IMG/VR virus record: IMGVR_UViG_3300025889_000266
Location: 1-41,092 of that record
Direction: 5' to 3' (one strand)
From: a virus
Length of the DNA stretch: 41,092 nucleotides
Below the pieces are notes generated by a model. It had not been told where the DNA came from, did not search any database, and was given only the letters and a program-made list of their open reading frames with translations. Positions within the stretch are counted from its first letter, which is position 1. Each line of letters starts with the position of its first letter. The translations under genes were made by a program, and so were the position numbers. Positions 2,150-16,908 of this stretch are shown here, piece by piece.

Positions 2150-2695
2150 ATGGCTAAGATCACATTCAGTAATATCTCGTCTGGTTATCAAAGTGTCAGC
2201 ACTCTGAACAATAACTTCGACCAGTTGGAGTACGAACTCCAGAACAATGTCCTGTACAGGAATAACCCTACTGGCGAGCCTAACCAGATGAGCAATGATC
2301 TGGACATGAATGGGCACGATATTTTGAATCTAGGTAACGCTACAGTCGTAGCCTCTGCTAGTAGCGTACAAACTATGCTTTGGGGTACGCAACGCGACGG
2401 TACAGGTACGCACAGTCTTAGCGTAGGCGATGTTTACAGAACAGTAGAAGTCTCTGCTAGTTCTTCGGTAACGGCGGTTATGTACCTTACCCTTGCCTCT
2501 ACAGCAGGATGGGTAGGTGGGCAATGGGTCTCTCTTCTTCAGAAAGGAGTAGGTAAGATCCTGGTTACTCCCGCAGCAGGGGTCACGATTAACTGCCCCG
2601 CTACTGTCAAAGGTACTCGTAGGCAGTACGGAACGGTAACACTTCGGTACAAGGGCAGCGATATCTGGTACTTGGATGGGGATGTATCCGTATGA
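2150..2695 (+). CDS. tail fibre-like protein, short
   Basis: The 181-residue product starts four bases after the previous stop. The N-terminal half has a pattern common at the start of podoviral tail fibre or appendage proteins: a conserved FSNISSGYQS/NNNFDQLE segment (about residues 5-28), then PNQMSNDLDMNGHDILNLGN (about 45-64), in which the DLDMNGxDILN motif recurs widely in phage fibre stalks. The C-terminal half is beta-rich and ends in LRYKGSDIWYLDGDVSV, a typical terminal module of appendages that attach other fibres. It is far shorter than full tail fibres, so it may be an adaptor fibre whose tip comes from the neighbouring appendage genes. Stop and next start overlap by four bases. 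Confidence 0.65.
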   Translation: MAKITFSNISSGYQSVSTLNNNFDQLEYELQNNVLYRNNPTGEPNQMSNDLDMNGHDILNLGNATVVASASSVQTMLWGTQRDGTGTHSLSVGDVYRTVEVSASSSVTAVMYLTLASTAGWVGGQWVSLLQKGVGKILVTPAAGVTINCPATVKGTRRQYGTVTLRYKGSDIWYLDGDVSV

Positions 2696-8984: not shown

Positions 8985-9953
8985 ATGTCCAATATGACGC
9001 TGAACTCTGCTGCGTTTATCGAAGCGCAACAGTATAGTCAGTTTATCCTTCGTACCCTGCCGACTGCGATCCTTCCCGCCTCTTTCTATCGGGATGTATC
9101 GGATTTCGGCGCAGGTTCGACGCTAAACATCAAAACCATTGGTACGGCAACGATTCAAGAAGTAGAAGAGGATACTCCTCTTATCTACAACCCGATTGAA
9201 ACCGGCAACATCACTCTCTCAATCACCGACTATGTTGGCGATGCTTGGTACGTTACTGACGTACTGCGTCAAGATGGTTCGCAGATTGAGGCTCTGATGG
9301 CTGCTCGCGCACAGGAAGCTACCCGTGCGATTCAGCAGCGTTTTGAAAGCCGCTTCTATCAAGTTGCCTATGCTGGTCAAACGGCTGCTAACCCCAACAA
9401 CGTAAACGGCTTCGCTCACCGCTTCCGCGCTACTGGCGCTAACTGGACGATGGACGAAGATGACCTGATTGCAATGCGTCTCGCATTCGATAAGGCCAAC
9501 GTACCGCAGTTCGGGCGCGTTGCTATTGTTGATCCCGTGGTTGCAGCAACTTTCCAGAAGAAGGTTGTTATGACCTCGCAGCTTGATCGTCTCCCGGCTT
9601 ATCAGTCGGTACTCGAAAATGGCTTCAACAACGAGCACCAGTTTGTAATGCGAATTCATGGCTGGGATATCTGGACCTCTAACCTTCTGCCCACGGTCGC
9701 CGCTGGCACGAGCGTAGACGGAACCAGCACTCAGTCTGCTAGCACTACCTGTATCGCTAACCTCTTCATGTCCATCGCGGATGACAACACCAAGCCGGTT
9801 ATGTCGGCATGGCGTCAGCCCCCGAAGGTTGAAGGTGAGCGCAACAAGGATCGCCAGCGTGATGAGTTCCTTACGACGGCTCGTTGGGGCATGGGAGTAC
9901 AGCGCCGGGATACCCTCGGTGTAGTTGTAACTTCTGCAACGGCAACGGAATAA
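8985..9953 (+). CDS. major capsid protein
   Basis: This 322-residue protein is preceded by a strong CAGGAG ribosome binding site and follows the scaffold gene. The sequence pattern fits HK97-fold coats of podoviruses: an N-terminal arm (MSNMTLNSAAFIEAQQYSQF), a strand-rich region with GAGSTLNIKTIGTATIQE, a long spine helix (around SQIEALMAARAQEATRAIQQ), then the P-domain with VPQFGRVAIVDPVVAATFQK. It ends in a segment with VQRRDTLGVVVTSATATE. Codon use is markedly more GC-rich than in the tail appendage genes, consistent with high expression. It forms the icosahedral shell around the packaged DNA. Confidence 0.88.
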   Translation: MSNMTLNSAAFIEAQQYSQFILRTLPTAILPASFYRDVSDFGAGSTLNIKTIGTATIQEVEEDTPLIYNPIETGNITLSITDYVGDAWYVTDVLRQDGSQIEALMAARAQEATRAIQQRFESRFYQVAYAGQTAANPNNVNGFAHRFRATGANWTMDEDDLIAMRLAFDKANVPQFGRVAIVDPVVAATFQKKVVMTSQLDRLPAYQSVLENGFNNEHQFVMRIHGWDIWTSNLLPTVAAGTSVDGTSTQSASTTCIANLFMSIADDNTKPVMSAWRQPPKVEGERNKDRQRDEFLTTARWGMGVQRRDTLGVVVTSATATE

Positions 9954-9966
9954 GGAGTAAATAATC

Positions 9967-10422
9967 ATGGCTAAAGAAAATAGTGCAGGTCTTGGTGTAA
10001 GCGCCCGTTATGGTGCCATCTCTCTTCCTGATGGCGCTCGCGGTGAACTCGGACGAGGCGAAGGCGGTATTTATACGCTTGCCGCTGACTTTTCGGCAAA
10101 TCTTATCAACTCCGATTCTATCGGTCAGGCGGTAACGGTTCTGCATCCGGGAACTCTGGTGCTTCGCGGTTGGGCTGAAGTAGAGACGGCTGTCTCTCTG
10201 AGTGCTGCTGGTGCTGCTGTATCCATTGGTCGCCAAGGCGGCCTGGGTACGGATAGTGCCGATCTCTCGGGTTCGGCTGTCGGTGTGGGCTTCAAAGCTC
10301 TGGGCCTCAAGGGGACGTTCTCCACCGGTATCACGGCTACAACGACGGTTGTTGTTGGTATGGCTGCTGGTTCAATCGAAGGTGGCGCTGGGCGTTTGAT
10401 CCTTGAGATCCTCAAGGCTTAA
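9967..10422 (+). CDS. putative capsid decoration or minor head protein
   Basis: This 151-residue product lies 13 bases after the coat gene and just before a strong terminator. It is rich in Gly, Ala, Ser and Val with alternating strands, few charges and no Cys: SARYGAISLPDGARGELG near the N-terminus, then GQAVTVLHPGTLVLRGWAEV, then VGFKALGLKGTFSTGITATT and a final RLILEILKA. The beta-rich, low-charge profile and position suggest a head decoration or cement protein, but I do not recognise a specific family. It shares the high-GC codon use of the coat gene, which suggests strong expression. Confidence 0.7.
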   Translation: MAKENSAGLGVSARYGAISLPDGARGELGRGEGGIYTLAADFSANLINSDSIGQAVTVLHPGTLVLRGWAEVETAVSLSAAGAAVSIGRQGGLGTDSADLSGSAVGVGFKALGLKGTFSTGITATTTVVVGMAAGSIEGGAGRLILEILKA

Positions 10423-10449
10423 CGATAACTACAACGACAACAACTCTTA

Positions 10450-10487
10450 GGGGGAGTTGGGGCGGGTGTCCCGCTCCCCCTTTTTTA
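10450..10487 (+). terminator. Rho-independent terminator after the head genes
   Basis: A very GC-rich hairpin pairs GGGGGAG (10450-10456) with CTCCCCC (10474-10480). Inside it a GCGGG/CCCGC stem closes around TGT, and a run of Ts follows at 10481-10486 with further Ts after it. It separates the capsid genes from the tail genes and would reduce readthrough into the latter. Confidence 0.85.
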
Positions 10488-10501
10488 TTTTTGGAGTCAG
10501 T

Positions 10502-11290
10502 ATGAAACTTACTCTCCTAGAGATAGTTCAAGACATAATGAACGATATGGATGGAGACAATGTTAACTCCATCAATGACACAATTGAAGCGCAGCAAGTT
10601 GCACAGATTGTCAAAACTACGTACCTTGAAATGCTGGCTAATCGCAATTGGCCGCATATGCATTCTCCTTTTAATTGCAATTCCTCTTCGGATTCTTCTT
10701 ATCCTACTAGCCTATCCATACCGGATAATATCAAAGAAGTTAAATGGATTCGGTACAACAAACGCTCCATTACCGACACGAAGGATAAGTATGAAGAGAT
10801 AACGTACCTCCAACCGGAAGACTTCTTCGATCATTGTTCCAGGAGAGACTCTTCTGCAAGCAATGTTCAAATCATTAATCTTAACGGTATGCGAATAAAT
10901 GTTCGCAACGATCAGCCTCCACAATACTGGACAAGTTTCGATGATTCCACCCTCATCATGGATTGTTTCGATAGCAATGTGGATTCAGTGCTACAAGCGG
11001 GAAAGACTTCTTGTTGGGGCGTTAAGAATCCTGAGTGGTCTGGCTTGGATAGCAGCATTCCTGATCTGCCTGCCGAAGCGTTTCCTGCTCTTGTTGAAGA
11101 AGCTAAAAGCACTGCTTTCTATACTCTTAGGCAAGTGGCAAACGAAAAGGCTGAACAGAAGGCTAGCAGACAGCATCGTTGGCTTTCTCGTAAAGCATGG
11201 CGAGCTAAGGGCGGTATCCGTATGCCTAACTATGGTAGGCGCAAGGCTTTCTCTGGTTATGAAAAGAACCCTCTCTTGGATAAAGGCTAA
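10502..11290 (+). CDS. head-tail adaptor (tail tubular protein A-like, gp11-type)
   Basis: I chose ATG 10502 (262 aa), after the terminator and a GGAG ribosome site; an upstream in-frame TTG at 10457 would lie inside the terminator stem. The N-terminus (KLTLLEIVQDIMNDMDGDNV, then INDTIEAQQVAQIVKTTY) and the following NRNWPH motif are strongly characteristic of podoviral adaptor proteins, which form the ring joining portal and nozzle. The C-terminus is basic, with RQHRWLSRKAWRAKGGIRMP. Size is somewhat larger than T7 gp11 (196 aa) but normal for related marine podoviruses as I recall. It overlaps the next start by one base. Confidence 0.82.
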   Translation: MKLTLLEIVQDIMNDMDGDNVNSINDTIEAQQVAQIVKTTYLEMLANRNWPHMHSPFNCNSSSDSSYPTSLSIPDNIKEVKWIRYNKRSITDTKDKYEEITYLQPEDFFDHCSRRDSSASNVQIINLNGMRINVRNDQPPQYWTSFDDSTLIMDCFDSNVDSVLQAGKTSCWGVKNPEWSGLDSSIPDLPAEAFPALVEEAKSTAFYTLRQVANEKAEQKASRQHRWLSRKAWRAKGGIRMPNYGRRKAFSGYEKNPLLDKG

Positions 11291-11553
11291 TGGCTAAATC
11301 ATCAGCTTGGCAACGAAAAGAAGGCAAAGACCCAAAAGGCGGATTGAACGCTAAAGGGCGGGCAGCTTATAACAGAGAGACAGGAGGCAATTTAAAAGCC
11401 CCTGCACCTAACCCTAAAACAAAGAAAGATGCTGGAAGAAGGAAATCTTTTTGCGCTCGTATGAAAGGCATGAAAGAGAAGCTGACCAGCGAGAAAACAA
11501 AGAACGATCCTAACAGTAGGATCAATAAGTCTTTGAGGGCATGGAACTGCTGA
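11290..11553 (+). CDS. small basic protein, DUF6321-like
   Basis: This 87-residue, Lys/Arg/Gly-rich protein begins MAKSSAWQRKEGKDPKGGLN and continues AKGRAAYNRETGGNLKAP, a pattern I recognise as the short DUF6321 family found beside phage tail genes. A central RRKSFCARMKGM segment and a C-terminal SLRAWNC are also typical. Its function is not known; the charge suggests nucleic acid contact, perhaps as a minor virion protein. It overlaps the adaptor stop by one base and lies eight bases before the next gene. Confidence 0.65.
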   Translation: MAKSSAWQRKEGKDPKGGLNAKGRAAYNRETGGNLKAPAPNPKTKKDAGRRKSFCARMKGMKEKLTSEKTKNDPNSRINKSLRAWNC

Positions 11554-11560
11554 GGATTAA

Positions 11561-11785
11561 ATGGAAGTTATTCAAAACGGAAGTTACTGGGTAATTAAGA
11601 ATACCCGAGGGCCGATCCCTAAAGTTCTTGACGGAGACTGGGTATCTAAAGGAAAAGCTGAAGAAGCCATTAAGCTGTTCCAGCAACAAGTACAAAGTCG
11701 AGCAATCAACGTAAGTCAACGTAGCAGAGAGCGCAGAGAACGTGCAATCCCTTCGACAAAAACACAGCCAGACAACAATAGTTGA
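11561..11785 (+). CDS. hypothetical protein overlapping the nozzle start
   Basis: A 74-residue product preceded by GAGGAT. The first 50 residues are a small mixed fold (NGSYWVIKNTRGPIPKVLDG, then SKGKAEEAIKLFQQQVQ); the remainder is Arg/Ser-rich and low in complexity. It has no recognised family. Its last 44 bases overlap the GTG start of the nozzle gene in another frame, which argues for coupled translation. Function unknown; position suggests a minor virion or assembly role. Confidence 0.55.
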   Translation: MEVIQNGSYWVIKNTRGPIPKVLDGDWVSKGKAEEAIKLFQQQVQSRAINVSQRSRERRERAIPSTKTQPDNNS

Positions 11786-13619
11786 GGCTAACAACTGGGT
11801 CGCTGGCCTTGTAACAGAGGCTTCTCCTATCAATTTCCCGGAAGGGGCTTCGGTAGATGAGGAGAACTTTGTGCTGGACAGAGACGGTTCTCGTAAACGC
11901 CGCCTTGGTCTAGGTAAGGTTGGTGATGGTATTCAAGAACTCGGCCATGTATCCGTAAGCGTATCTGGGAGCAGCACTGTATCCAATACGTGCTATGCCT
12001 CTATGAGTTATCTCTGGACTAACGCTGGAGAAAATCCTGCTACAAATATCTTTGTTTATCAGTACGGCAACAAACTGTACTTTTACGATGCTAACTCTGC
12101 TGACAGCGTAGGCAATCCGTATTTCGGGTCCAACATATCTCTTACGGCAACCATAGGGACTAAGTTCTCTTTTTCCAGTATTCAGGGGAATTTGATTGTA
12201 GCTGTAGGGGATCAGCAGCTACGAGTTGTCGAGTACTTGTCTTCTATTTCGTACTCGCTATCGCAAGTGCGTCTTAAAGTACGAGACTTCTGGGGCATAG
12301 ATGACGGGTTTGCTACGGACGAGCGGACAAGTACTCTCACGGATCTTCACGCTTATAATTTATATAACCAAGGCTGGGTACCAGAGTTCTTTTGCTCTTC
12401 TGATCCTGACAACCCTACTACCATGAATAATGGCACAACAGAGGATCCTGTTGAGCGCACGTATCTTTCTCTTGGTGTATATCCCAGCAATGCGGATATC
12501 TTGTTCACTGCGCTTACAATGCTTACTAATGGCCGTAAAGCATACTATCCGCACGCTCTCAAGAACATTGTATCCGGTAATACACCCGCTGCTAATGGGC
12601 ACTACATCATTGATCTCTTTAATCGCAGCCAAGGCCGAAAGGACACTTACGACGAAGATATAGCTGCGGGTTGGACTGCTCGCAGGGATTATAAGAATTC
12701 CATAGTTACGGACCAATCCACTGGAGGTATTAGAAGTATTGCAGCCTACGCTGGCCGTATCTTCTATGCCTGTTCTGCTGGGGAAACTGGAGGAGACTCC
12801 AAGAGTCCCCATATTGGCACATTCGTGCTGTTCTCTAAATTGGTGGACTCAATCCAGGATCTTGGGAAGTGCTATCAAGAAGCGGATCCTACTGCAGAAG
12901 ATATCTCGGATCTGATTGATACAGATGGAGGGTACATACAGCTTCCTGATGCAGTAAACATCAAAGCATTGATACCTTTTAAGAGCGAGCTTCTTGTCTT
13001 TGCGGACAATGGCGTATGGTCTATTGCGGGAGGAGATAGGGGCTTTACGGCTACCGAATACCAGTCAAAGTTTCTCACGAACAATGGGGCTTTGTCTACC
13101 GACAGTATTGTTGTCACGCCGGATGCAGTGCTGTACTGGAGCCGTAACGGTATCTTTGCTCTGGGCGTAGGGCAGACAGGTATTGAATTCCAATCCTTGA
13201 CTGAGTACACGATTCAGCGTCTATATAACGCTATTCCGTACAACTGCAAGAACAACGCTATCGGTATATACGATGACGCATCGTATCGCTGCCGTTGGTT
13301 GTACCAGCAAGAATACAATGCGGATGCGCCTCAAAAGTTCACGCATGAATTGATCCTGGATCTCTCTATGCCTGCATGGAGTCGCTTCAAGTTTTACGAT
13401 CTTTCAGTTACTTTTATCGCTACTCCTAGAGTAACAGGATATTTAACGACGCCAGTAGCATATAGAAACGTAGTTGGCTCTGATTTCCGATATACAGGGC
13501 TTGAAGAACAGGATTCTCATACGTACTCAATGTCTTTATTCTATTACAATAATGAAAACTTTGAGGACTGGTCAGCAGTAGACGCAGCCGCCTATCTTAT
13601 AACGGGGTATCTTCTGTGA
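11742..13619 (+). CDS. tail nozzle (tail tubular protein B-like), body part
   Basis: This 625-residue protein starts at GTG 11742 within the preceding gene. The start SQTTIVEANNWVAGLVTEAS, then PINFPEGASVDEENFVLDRDG, is the signature of podoviral nozzle (gp12-type) proteins, followed by beta-propeller-like repeats (FVYQYGNKLYFYD; FKSELLVFADNGVWSIAGG; DAVLYWSRNGIFALG). It would form the tail tip channel below the adaptor. In relatives as I remember them, the sequence continues beyond the AAYLITGYLL found at this stop into a hinge with an APYL/HF-K-TE pattern and a final W-E-W...KIRGKGRALSF domain. Here those parts lie in the next three ORFs, so this gene appears to be split at its 3' end. Confidence 0.82.
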   Translation: MQSLRQKHSQTTIVEANNWVAGLVTEASPINFPEGASVDEENFVLDRDGSRKRRLGLGKVGDGIQELGHVSVSVSGSSTVSNTCYASMSYLWTNAGENPATNIFVYQYGNKLYFYDANSADSVGNPYFGSNISLTATIGTKFSFSSIQGNLIVAVGDQQLRVVEYLSSISYSLSQVRLKVRDFWGIDDGFATDERTSTLTDLHAYNLYNQGWVPEFFCSSDPDNPTTMNNGTTEDPVERTYLSLGVYPSNADILFTALTMLTNGRKAYYPHALKNIVSGNTPAANGHYIIDLFNRSQGRKDTYDEDIAAGWTARRDYKNSIVTDQSTGGIRSIAAYAGRIFYACSAGETGGDSKSPHIGTFVLFSKLVDSIQDLGKCYQEADPTAEDISDLIDTDGGYIQLPDAVNIKALIPFKSELLVFADNGVWSIAGGDRGFTATEYQSKFLTNNGALSTDSIVVTPDAVLYWSRNGIFALGVGQTGIEFQSLTEYTIQRLYNAIPYNCKNNAIGIYDDASYRCRWLYQQEYNADAPQKFTHELILDLSMPAWSRFKFYDLSVTFIATPRVTGYLTTPVAYRNVVGSDFRYTGLEEQDSHTYSMSLFYYNNENFEDWSAVDAAAYLITGYLL

Positions 13620-14617
13620 AACCTATTCGTAGGATACAATCTTGGAATACACAAAATTTTCAAAATCAACAAGATGGCCAATCAAGTTTTATATCTCCAT
13701 CTAGATATAAAATGGCTCCTTACCTAACCGCGTATTTTAACAGAACGGAAATAATTGTTCCTGATCTTGCGGTACAACCTTGGGAACCTCCTGATAATGG
13801 AGGAGGAGGGGGTGGAGAACCGTATGATGATTATGTTTCTACTTTAAATTTAGATAACTGGTGGAAATTATCAGAGGCTTTCGACTATCCTGACACCAGT
13901 GGAATAAATTCTGGTACTCAAATTTACCCAATAACAAGATCAGGTTCAAGTACAATAGGGCTTGGGTACGAATCTCAAGTAAGTACAGTAACTAACGGAA
14001 CTTACGATAAAAAATCCATAAGATTTTTAGATATTAAAGATCTTTCGATATCTTCTTCAAACGTACCATTTGGATTAGTAACATCTACTGCACTTGGTTC
14101 CGGTTTTACGACTGCTTCTCCTTTTTCATTGCATGGTTGGTTTATTTTAGAGAAGGCCAAAACAAATTATATATTTAGAACCCATAATACGATGTATTAT
14201 CGTGGACTACAATTTTATATAACTTCTGCATTAAAAGCGAGATTAGAGTTTGGAAATGGAGGATTACCTGATCTCCCTAATAGAAGAACTTACGAATCTC
14301 CTGTCTCTGTAGTAAGTTTGGATACACCTACATTTATAGTAGTGAACTGTACTCCAAGTACAGTTGCTGCAAATAATGTTTTCGAGGTTTGGGTTAATGG
14401 TGTAAAAATTAGTATGGCTTATACTAGTGGAACTGCAACTACAACTTCGTGGCCGTCTGGCGATAACACAAATTTTGGAGTATACGGGGCTAATACAGGT
14501 GCACAACCAACCGCTGTAAATTATTCTTTAGTAGGAAAAATAGATCAAATAGGCCATATAAATAGATGGTTAACTCAGACTGAAATTGAAACAATGTGGG
14601 ATTTGGGTAAATTTTAA
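13616..14617 (+). CDS. LamG-like domain protein with nozzle-hinge N-terminus
   Basis: This 333-residue product starts at GTG 13616 (GTGA overlap with the nozzle stop). Its N-terminus contains SRYKMAPYLTAYFNRTE (about residues 30-46), which matches the hinge that follows the body in other nozzle proteins and also matches the start of the next gene. A Gly-rich linker and PYDDY lead into a LamG/concanavalin-like jelly roll (about 70-330): FSLHGWFILEKAKTNYIFR, then ARLEFGNGG, EVWVNGVKISM and a closing LVGKIDQIGHINRWLTQTE. Such domains bind glycans, so a receptor-binding role on the tail tip is likely (inference). The gene is clearly AT-richer than the nozzle body. Confidence 0.72.
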   Translation: MKPIRRIQSWNTQNFQNQQDGQSSFISPSRYKMAPYLTAYFNRTEIIVPDLAVQPWEPPDNGGGGGGEPYDDYVSTLNLDNWWKLSEAFDYPDTSGINSGTQIYPITRSGSSTIGLGYESQVSTVTNGTYDKKSIRFLDIKDLSISSSNVPFGLVTSTALGSGFTTASPFSLHGWFILEKAKTNYIFRTHNTMYYRGLQFYITSALKARLEFGNGGLPDLPNRRTYESPVSVVSLDTPTFIVVNCTPSTVAANNVFEVWVNGVKISMAYTSGTATTTSWPSGDNTNFGVYGANTGAQPTAVNYSLVGKIDQIGHINRWLTQTEIETMWDLGKF

Positions 14618-16324
14618 ATGCGTATAGGTGCATCTCGACAGAAGTACTCTCCGTGGCTTGTTGTGCATTTCAACAAGACTGAAAGCATTTCTGCTGATTC
14701 TCCTGTGGATCCGTTTGGCCCGCCATCAGGCGGAATATACCCGTATGATGATTACGCAAGTGGTTGGTCAGGCGGACCTGCACTTCATTACTGGTGGAAG
14801 ATGCGGTTGGATGTTACAGCAACATCCTCTATATCGCAAACTAATAGAGGAACTGGCGGCACAGCTATTCTGTATAGCAGCGATAGAAATTCAATGAGTA
14901 AGACTTTTGCAGTAACATTAGGAACAGAAGACTCTTCTGCTCTTGTTCCAGCAGGGAGTGCCGATAGAACTGTTATTTATGCGCCTAATGTTGAAATTAA
15001 CGGTACGCAACCTTTTACTGCTGGTATATGGGTAAGACCGAAGGTTCAAAACCAAGGAACCGCTTTGTTATTTCAATCCAATCTTGGATCTCCTGCGGAT
15101 AAACTTGATGCTAGCAGCTACAATGTTTATCGCGGGCTATGGGTTGAATTAGTCAACGGTAAAATTTGGGCGCAATTTGGAAATGGGCGAGGAAACTCAT
15201 ACACTAACAGAATTTCTTTTGAAACAGACTTTAGTTGTGTTGAAAACGATACTGTACAATTTGTAGCAGTTTACTGTGATCCAACCAGCTATCAAACGGC
15301 TGAAGCATCCCTCTGTCCTGTATTTAAATTGTACGCAAATGGAAGGCAAATTCCATACCATAGAAACGGAGGAATAGGTTCTGTTGCTGGCGGGTATTTT
15401 GGAGACTCAGCATACCAAGCCGTTGCTTGGTCAACTTTAACTAATAGTGTTGGACTTAGTGGCGTAGGGTTTCCGGGGACACAAAAAATTTATTGGCATA
15501 ATAACGTAATTGATGAGCCTTTTGTTCATTTTGACGAGATTACTCCGCACCAAATTCGTAGGATGTGGGAAATAGGTATTACTGGAAGTTCCGATTTCAC
15601 TACCGCAAGTGTTGCGTACACAAGCTCGGATCCTTATTTTGATAATGTAGTCTGGCTTATACACGGAGAAGGTACTCTTTCTTCTGTCAATATACAAGAT
15701 AGCAGTAAATATAATTGGCCTGTGACTGTAACTAATAAAGCCTATATAGACACATCAGAGAAAAAATTTGGAATAAGTTCTGTTCGTTTTGCTGGAACTG
15801 GTGTCGCCACTGGTGGAGGCGCTTGTATTGAAAACCCAGGCACTACAGAAATGATGCTTGGTTCTGATGATTGGACTATTGAAACTTGGTTGAATATTAA
15901 ACAAAAATCTACAAACCTAGCTATTATTTTTGATTCTTGTCCTATTAACTTTTATGCTAGGCATAACCAACTAAGACTTTCTCCTGCTGGTGTTCTTGCC
16001 TATAATGTAAATTCAACGTATCTAAGCTCTTCTTTTACACTATCAACAAGCGTCTGGTATCATGTTGCTGTTGTTAAATCCAATAATCTTGTCAAAATGT
16101 ATATAGATGGTCAAAAAACTGGATTAGAGTTGACCGATACGTATTCGTATACAACTGGAAGATTTCGTTGGGGAGCAGATAGCGCAGCCCATGAAACATT
16201 TGATGTGATTGGTTATAGCTTTAATGGATGGATGGAAGAGATGCGAATAACTAAAGGTGTGGCTAGATATACTAGCAATTTTACTCCTCCATCTGCTGCA
16301 TTCCCAGACGGAACTCCTGTTTAA
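14618..16324 (+). CDS. double LamG-domain protein, probable tail-tip receptor-binding module
   Basis: This 568-residue product begins at the base after the previous stop and in the same frame. The N-terminus GASRQKYSPWLVVHFNKTES aligns with the previous protein's hinge and with the region that continues nozzle proteins in relatives. After PYDDY comes LamG domain 1 (about 45-325), paralogous to the previous protein (YRGLWVELVNGKIWAQFGNG; PFVHFDEITPHQIRRMWEIG). LamG domain 2 is of a different subtype (about 335-560): DNVVWLIHGEGTLSSVNIQD, KFGISSVRFAG, DDWTIETWLNIKQ, YHVAVVKSNNLVKMYIDG, MEEMRITKGVARYTSNFTPP. Both domain types are known for carbohydrate or ligand binding. Confidence 0.78.
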   Translation: MRIGASRQKYSPWLVVHFNKTESISADSPVDPFGPPSGGIYPYDDYASGWSGGPALHYWWKMRLDVTATSSISQTNRGTGGTAILYSSDRNSMSKTFAVTLGTEDSSALVPAGSADRTVIYAPNVEINGTQPFTAGIWVRPKVQNQGTALLFQSNLGSPADKLDASSYNVYRGLWVELVNGKIWAQFGNGRGNSYTNRISFETDFSCVENDTVQFVAVYCDPTSYQTAEASLCPVFKLYANGRQIPYHRNGGIGSVAGGYFGDSAYQAVAWSTLTNSVGLSGVGFPGTQKIYWHNNVIDEPFVHFDEITPHQIRRMWEIGITGSSDFTTASVAYTSSDPYFDNVVWLIHGEGTLSSVNIQDSSKYNWPVTVTNKAYIDTSEKKFGISSVRFAGTGVATGGGACIENPGTTEMMLGSDDWTIETWLNIKQKSTNLAIIFDSCPINFYARHNQLRLSPAGVLAYNVNSTYLSSSFTLSTSVWYHVAVVKSNNLVKMYIDGQKTGLELTDTYSYTTGRFRWGADSAAHETFDVIGYSFNGWMEEMRITKGVARYTSNFTPPSAAFPDGTPV

Positions 16325-16333
16325 GGTAATAAC

Positions 16334-16621
16334 ATGGCACTACAGAATCAATCATCATGTCTAGTACAGGCTCGATGGGAATGGACAACCTCCGAAGACT
16401 CTAATCGTTGGGGAAGCGAGTTCCAAGCCTATCGTTTTAGGCAACCTTTATTTGTTGAGGAAACTAACAGCAGCCTTAGCGACGGACTATCTGTTATTAC
16501 TACTCGTAACAAGATACGCGGTAAAGGTAGAGCGTTGTCTTTTCGATTCAGGACAGAACCAGGGAAGGACTGCCAGCTTCTAGGTTGGAGCGTGGAACTA
16601 GGATGGAACCGCGAAGTATGA
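16334..16621 (+). CDS. nozzle C-terminal domain encoded as a separate ORF
   Basis: This 95-residue protein starts at ATG 16334, with AAGG eight bases upstream. It consists of WEWTTSEDSNRWGSEFQAYR, then VITTRNKIRGKGRALSFRFR and GKDCQLLGWSVELGWN. This is the pattern I recall as the very C-terminus of podoviral nozzle (tail tubular B-like) proteins, normally joined to the propeller body. Here it follows two LamG ORFs and is in the same frame as both, with only TAA stops between. It probably still docks onto the nozzle as a separate chain (inference). Its stop overlaps the next ATG (ATGA). Confidence 0.68.
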   Translation: MALQNQSSCLVQARWEWTTSEDSNRWGSEFQAYRFRQPLFVEETNSSLSDGLSVITTRNKIRGKGRALSFRFRTEPGKDCQLLGWSVELGWNREV

Positions 16622-16908
16622 TGTCCGTACTGGATGAGAATCTGTACTGGAGGATCTCGGGAGATCGAGCGCCTACTGGTGAAGTTATCCTGCACTGCAC
16701 AATAAAGAGGTGGACTCACACCGTATACAAGTGCTTGATGGGCCAAGTCTGTCAGTTGCAAATGATGATTAAAGAACCCTTGTATGCTCCTTGGGTATCG
16801 GAGAAACAAGAGAAGTTCATGGCTATGCTGGGATTCTATCCTACCGAGAAATACATGGTAGGAATAGATCAGAATGTTTATCAATTGTTTAAGTTCGAGG
16901 TACATTAA
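16618..16908 (+). CDS. putative gp13-like internal virion or assembly protein
   Basis: The chosen start is ATG 16618, in an ATGA overlap with the preceding stop, giving 96 residues (MMSVLDENLYWRISGDRAPT). The C-terminal part APWVSEKQEKFMAMLGFYPT followed by VYQLFKFEV resembles the last segment of GNAT-like folds and of T7 gp13 (x-F-L-K-x-I-G...Q-L-F), which also sits directly after the nozzle gene. The upstream acetyl-CoA loop expected of an active acetyltransferase is not visible, so activity is unlikely. The assignment rests on position and a short motif. Confidence 0.45.
   Translation: MMSVLDENLYWRISGDRAPTGEVILHCTIKRWTHTVYKCLMGQVCQLQMMIKEPLYAPWVSEKQEKFMAMLGFYPTEKYMVGIDQNVYQLFKFEVH

Follow-up and report, generated by a model that had tools for sequence, protein, structure and literature searches.

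Organization of the nozzle region

The window, by which we mean the whole 41,092-base stretch of DNA analysed here, is the metagenomic virus record IMGVR_UViG_3300025889_000266 and carries a podovirus structural module (Table 1). Its nozzle region consists of four consecutive ORFs without gaps, comprising a nozzle body, two ORFs termed A and B, and a short C-terminal piece termed C. The body has a GTG start and a TGA stop, and its product ends in TGYLL. Body and C match complementary stretches of one 769-column family, phrog_8094 (“tail appendage”), and a sequence match to the podovirus nozzle family is therefore present over both the body and the C-terminal domain, but the two are encoded in different ORFs rather than forming the single polypeptide chain of podovirus nozzles. 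The profile search thus bears out the original prediction, made from the letters alone, that a nozzle gene is split here into a body and a C-terminal piece; the 95-aa protein matches the nozzle family only, and homologues with body and C joined exist. By analogy, the body would comprise the N-terminal strands of the platform and the beta-propeller.

The two intervening ORFs have related layouts. A starts with a leader of ~28 aa, followed by the hinge strand SRYKMAPYLTAYFNRTE, a Pro/Gly linker and a LamG-like domain, and B carries the hinge strand SRQKYSPWLVVHFNKTE at its extreme N-terminus, followed by two LamG-like domains. Elsewhere in the record there is no second copy of the nozzle, no other ORF matching the body, and no RVT_1 reverse transcriptase that would indicate a diversity-generating retroelement. 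A 111-aa M15-type peptidase (PF13539; 23825–24160) is a candidate endolysin. A host scan against genome contigs gave one marginal, uninformative match.

Table 1. Features of the window and, in the last line, of a fused sister.
Feature	Coordinates	Strand	Evidence or remark
181-aa stub with tailspike N-terminal anchor	2150..2695	+	same place as the two spikes of fused sisters
Terminase gene	starts 4259		structural module
Portal gene	starts 5805		structural module
Scaffold-position gene	starts 8256		structural module
Capsid gene	starts 8985		structural module
Probable adaptor ring protein (tail protein)	10505..11290	+	phrog_7592, E 1e-92; part of co-inherited block
Nozzle body, 625 aa	11742..13619	+	phrog_8094 4–557/769, E 3e-136
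ORF A, 333 aa	13616..14617	+	hinge HMM E 9e-5; homologous to first half of B
Hinge strand in A	13684..13761 (approximate limits)	+	hinge HMM match; K and TE kept
ORF B, 568 aa	14618..16324	+	hinge HMM E 3e-4; PF13385 E 1e-16
Hinge strand in B	14618..14683 (approximate limits)	+	14/37 alignment columns invariant
Nozzle C-terminal domain C, separate 95-aa chain	16334..16621	+	phrog_8094 678–765/769, E 1e-31
Internal virion protein, 1557 aa	17343–22016		downstream of nozzle region
Beta-helix spikes of fused sister L159	L159:1307–2899, L159:2915–4510		before terminase gene

Unsplit relatives and a single origin of the split

Among the fetched viral loci, 122 encode body and C-terminal domain in one ORF (a count of loci, several of which come from the same contig). 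Separate ORFs were found only in the window and six contigs (3300006802_000284, 3300010885_003378, 3300027973_000136, 3300037189_002190, 3300042691_001939 and 3300010370_000340, the last of which ends within B). A query spanning the end of the body, the hinge and C matched 110 phage records, 99 of them in one place with a query coverage of 80% or more. All 60 of the phage-record matches listed consist of a single aligned piece, identifying these records as fused nozzles, and the nozzle of Salinivibrio phage CW02 (Zobellviridae) is annotated as fused.

The closest unsplit sisters (L050–L053) encode a 739-aa nozzle whose body is 67–68% identical to that of the window and whose hinge, GYITAGDSARKKYAPYLTVHCNRTE, continues straight into SSCLIQAQWEW. 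In a tree of 31 body sequences the split members are grouped with support 100/99 and nested inside fused relatives, so that the fission of the nozzle gene most simply happened once, within the fused lineage. The fused relatives and this single origin support the earlier proposal that LamG-carrying ORFs broke up a nozzle originally made as one chain and acquired its hinge. No description of a split nozzle was found in the open-access literature searched. Additional material also occurs in unsplit nozzles: that of a distant relative (L042:7965–10451) contains a CBM5/12 carbohydrate-binding module at residues 216–246, and another of 1112 aa (L028:6794–10132) has a long extra stretch, free of Pfam matches, between the matched body and the hinge.

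The nozzle hinge recurs at the N-termini of A and B

Both A and B begin with the hinge pattern of the nozzle family, K...PYL...F.RTE, and both retain the K, T and E that never vary in the hinges of fused nozzles. A hinge HMM built from fused nozzles only was run over 5,305 ORFs and found A with E 9e-5 and B with E 3e-4, whereas the best ORF other than a nozzle or A/B reached E 0.53 and the best shuffled ORF E 0.058. As the values for A and B lie far below those of the controls, the hinge pattern is more than chance, which upholds the claim that the LamG ORFs carry at their N-termini the hinge missing from the body. Each of five split lineages has exactly two hinge-bearing ORFs in the same order, and 14 of 37 hinge alignment columns are invariant among the split B proteins (n = 5). 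In IMG/VR, the B hinge pattern was found in the six split contigs and nowhere else.

LamG cargo of A and B

That A and B are both LamG ORFs, as had been predicted, holds fully for B, whose C-terminal half is LamG (PF13385, E 1e-16), and in a weaker form for A. Window A has no family match and no Pfam match, but it shares similarity with the N-terminal half of B (tblastn E 3e-12), aligns with LamG in hhalign at E 1e-3 but with a probability of only 20%, a weak profile match, and has PF13385 counterparts at the A position of three relatives (L003, L048 and L049). On this combined evidence we regard window A as LamG-like.

The cargo is variable among the split lineages. PF13385 is found in both A and B of L003, L048 and L049; A contains one LamG-like domain in the window, two LamG domains in L003, one each in L048 and L049 and none in L001, and B contains two in the window and in L049 and one each in L003 and L048. 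Between most lineages the A/B cargo is 27–34% identical, compared with 79–97% for the body and 73–96% for C. A and B accordingly combine a conserved N-terminal anchor with exchangeable C-terminal cargo, the hinge being kept and the cargo swapped or lost. The A of L001 (L001:9875–10057) consists of 60 aa with the hinge only, and B follows directly; it looks like the result of a deletion running between the hinge regions of A and B, and may be a gene in decay instead of a working plug.

An AlphaFold2 (AF2) model of ORF B (pLDDT 46) is confident only in the C-terminal half, the N-terminal half including the hinge being poorly predicted. Foldseek matched the C-terminal half to ConA-like lectin domains, among them lectin domains of sialidases and binding domains of neurotoxins, and we take these matches to show no more than a common ConA-like lectin fold in that half of the model. 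Matches to hemagglutinin were judged to be chance.

The window is a recombinant that received the split nozzle as a block

In the terminase, portal and scaffold-position genes and in everything after C, the nearest relatives of the window are the fused sisters; in between, it is closest to the split lineage. Identities of the window to split L003 and to fused sisters are 96 and 87% for the capsid, 92 and 67% for o151, 89 and 76% for the adaptor, 87 and 68% for the body and 91 and 66% for C; the small gene o74 is an exception within the block (59% to L003 versus 79% to fused). The gene after C is 81% identical to fused sisters versus 60% to split relatives, and at the DNA level the switch falls at ~16,604–16,634, which is the C stop codon. 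In the body tree the window is grouped with L001, L003 and L048 (support 98/97), whereas trees of the two genes after C place it with the fused sisters on a 100/100 branch. These incompatible trees argue that recombination moved a segment ending exactly with C. By these sequence comparisons the window is a recombinant, with the block 8985–16621 (capsid to C, o74 excepted) derived from the split lineage and the flanks from the fused lineage. The right breakpoint at the C stop ties C to the body, A and B independently of sequence similarity. Further downstream, the internal virion protein of the window is 75% identical to that of fused L051 and ~27% to those of split L003, L048 and L049 and of fused L050, pointing to ejection proteins that turn over very fast or are swapped.

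A second region distinguishes the two lineages. Just before the terminase gene, fused sisters encode two proteins of ~530 to 790 aa (where the full region is in the record), which share an anchor of ~70 aa at the N-terminus and then continue into a pectate-lyase-like beta-helix (PF12708), an architecture typical of tailspikes. The window, L001 and L003 encode nothing more at this position than a 181-aa protein with the anchor, and PF12708 was not found anywhere in these three records; conversely, LamG is absent from a 47-kb fused sister. The stub is 85% identical to that of split L003, whereas the terminase in between is closer to the fused lineage, so that the stub region of the window, too, is assigned by sequence to the split lineage. 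The loss of two spikes and the gain of two LamG chains, with the two regions held together within a mosaic genome, is a lead and not proof, as the contrast represents one evolutionary event seen in three split records, two of which are near-identical in the block. At the left edge of the record, an open ORF of 420 aa (3–1265) without family match is possibly a truncated structural or spike protein.

Selection and coding arrangement

pN/pS is 0.10–0.20 for the body and 0.05–0.24 for the separate C. The body stop and the A start overlap as GTGA in all five split lineages, and the starts of B and C lie at, or a few bases from, the upstream stop codon; translation of the operon-like run body-A-B-C is thus probably coupled via overlapping or abutting stop and start codons. 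The low pN/pS in C, the lack of a second nozzle in the record and the overlapping or abutting ORFs together argue against decay. For a metagenomic virus record it might be supposed that the nozzle is decaying or that assembly joined unrelated pieces, but the same arrangement recurs in six other contigs of different sequence and the block was transferred as a unit, which makes such an explanation hardly credible; decay or a second nozzle copy was rejected on pN/pS and the record-wide search. The split nozzle is, as far as these signatures tell, a working arrangement with body and C under purifying selection.

A programmed frameshift or readthrough could in principle still yield a body-A-B-C polyprotein and leave the nozzle as one chain, and window A, B and C do share one common frame with only TAA stops between them. 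However, split relatives differ in the frames that B and C occupy with respect to A, each of the three ORFs has its own start codon at or beside the preceding stop, and a slippery heptamer at the body end was found in none of the split lineages. Because the frames are not conserved and the slippery site is absent, recoding and readthrough were rejected, and we consider a hidden fusion protein very improbable.

A proposed split-hinge model of the nozzle

The AF2 model of the fused relative L050 (pLDDT 85, pTM 0.83), whose hinge includes residues 622–635, has podovirus nozzles as its top matches in the PDB (best E 4e-24), among them cyanophage A4, Pa223, PhiM1, T7 gp12 (E 4e-18), SU10 and P22 gp10. 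As judged on this relative, the family is predicted to have the beta-propeller and platform fold. The C-terminal domain of T7 gp12 is the platform binding to the adaptor ring, and the tip of the nozzle is made by a different element, an insertion in propeller blade 3 (PMC6702177). By this analogy the separated 95-aa piece is more likely adaptor-side platform than tip, near the fibre-docking groove, and the hinge would lie where fibres dock; the “tail tip” placement of the original prediction is therefore not supported.

The reading that we favour, and hold to be probable though well short of certain, is that C completes the nozzle while A and B donate hinge strands and dock as receptor binders. 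The nozzle gene would have been split inside the hinge, with the body and the 95-aa C together rebuilding the subunit non-covalently, and the hinge strand that formerly joined them would have been copied onto the lectin-like A and B. By donating its hinge strand to the nozzle where propeller and platform meet, each of these would hang its LamG domains on the tail as an exchangeable receptor-binding protein, A and B taking the place of the two tailspikes of fused relatives. Strand donation, virion location, stoichiometry, sugar binding and the receptor-binding role are what we infer for A and B; counting against the model is a stoichiometry that it does not account for, with two hinge donors but a single hinge site in each subunit.

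Alternatively, C alone may complement the body, the hinges of A and B being leftovers of insertion or duplication and the two chains attaching otherwise or not belonging to the virion at all. The modest hinge identity of distant members to L049 (36–38% for A, 44–53% for B) and the pN/pS of 0.49–0.86 in those pairs fit such leftovers, but all five lineages keep the hinge in A as well as in B despite cargo replacement, the invariant columns of the B hinge and the K and TE of fused nozzles are retained, and L001 A lost its cargo and kept its hinge; we therefore deem this explanation unlikely. Still less likely, in our estimate, is that the 95-aa chain and the LamG chains form part of a distal tail tip. 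Some nozzles do carry extra tip domains, and the L042 nozzle has its CBM5/12 insert, but in T7 gp12 it is the blade 3 insertion that makes the tip and the C-terminal domain that faces the adaptor (PMC6702177).

A stronger form of the split-hinge model, which we put forward tentatively and rate at somewhat less than an even chance, is that the nozzle subunit is complete only once a LamG chain docks, one strand being supplied in trans by interchangeable receptor binders. If true, there would be a mechanical link from receptor binding to the nozzle gate, and binders could be exchanged in evolution with the nozzle gene untouched. In the usual view the nozzle is a single conserved chain gating DNA release and receptor binders are separate add-ons, whereas here the binder would carry a piece of the gate. 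Should the hinge dock as proposed, the system would offer a natural case for asking how binding of a receptor leads to opening of the nozzle. It also presents the fission of an essential tail gene for which both an unsplit sister and several split lineages are available, and the reciprocal loss of two tailspikes makes a concrete prediction on which proteins recognise the host.

Comparison with known systems

The nearest known counterparts are the Zobellviridae nozzles (phrog_8094; CW02 gp43, ICP2, PA11 and CVT22), which belong to the same family over body and C-terminal domain and share the gene order terminase, portal, capsid, adaptor, nozzle and internal virion protein. They are one chain, whereas here body and C are separate with two LamG chains between them. 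The likeness of the fused homologue to T7 gp12 is at the level of the fold only, no sequence similarity being detected by hhalign. The gp17 fibres of T7 are positioned between the fibre docks of nozzle and adaptor (PMC6702177). The T7 nozzle is intact, however, and its fibres bear no known nozzle-derived strand. In SU10, receptor-binding short tail fibres attach directly to the nozzle via a short N-terminal segment (PMC9509320), which resembles the attachment proposed here, but the SU10 segment binds a Trp-rich dock loop of a one-chain nozzle. PF13385-type domains likewise occur on virion proteins such as the cyanophage gp7 baseplate wedge and other tail proteins; in those cases the domain is fused to the structural protein, whereas the LamG domains described here are on separate chains with a nozzle-derived strand.
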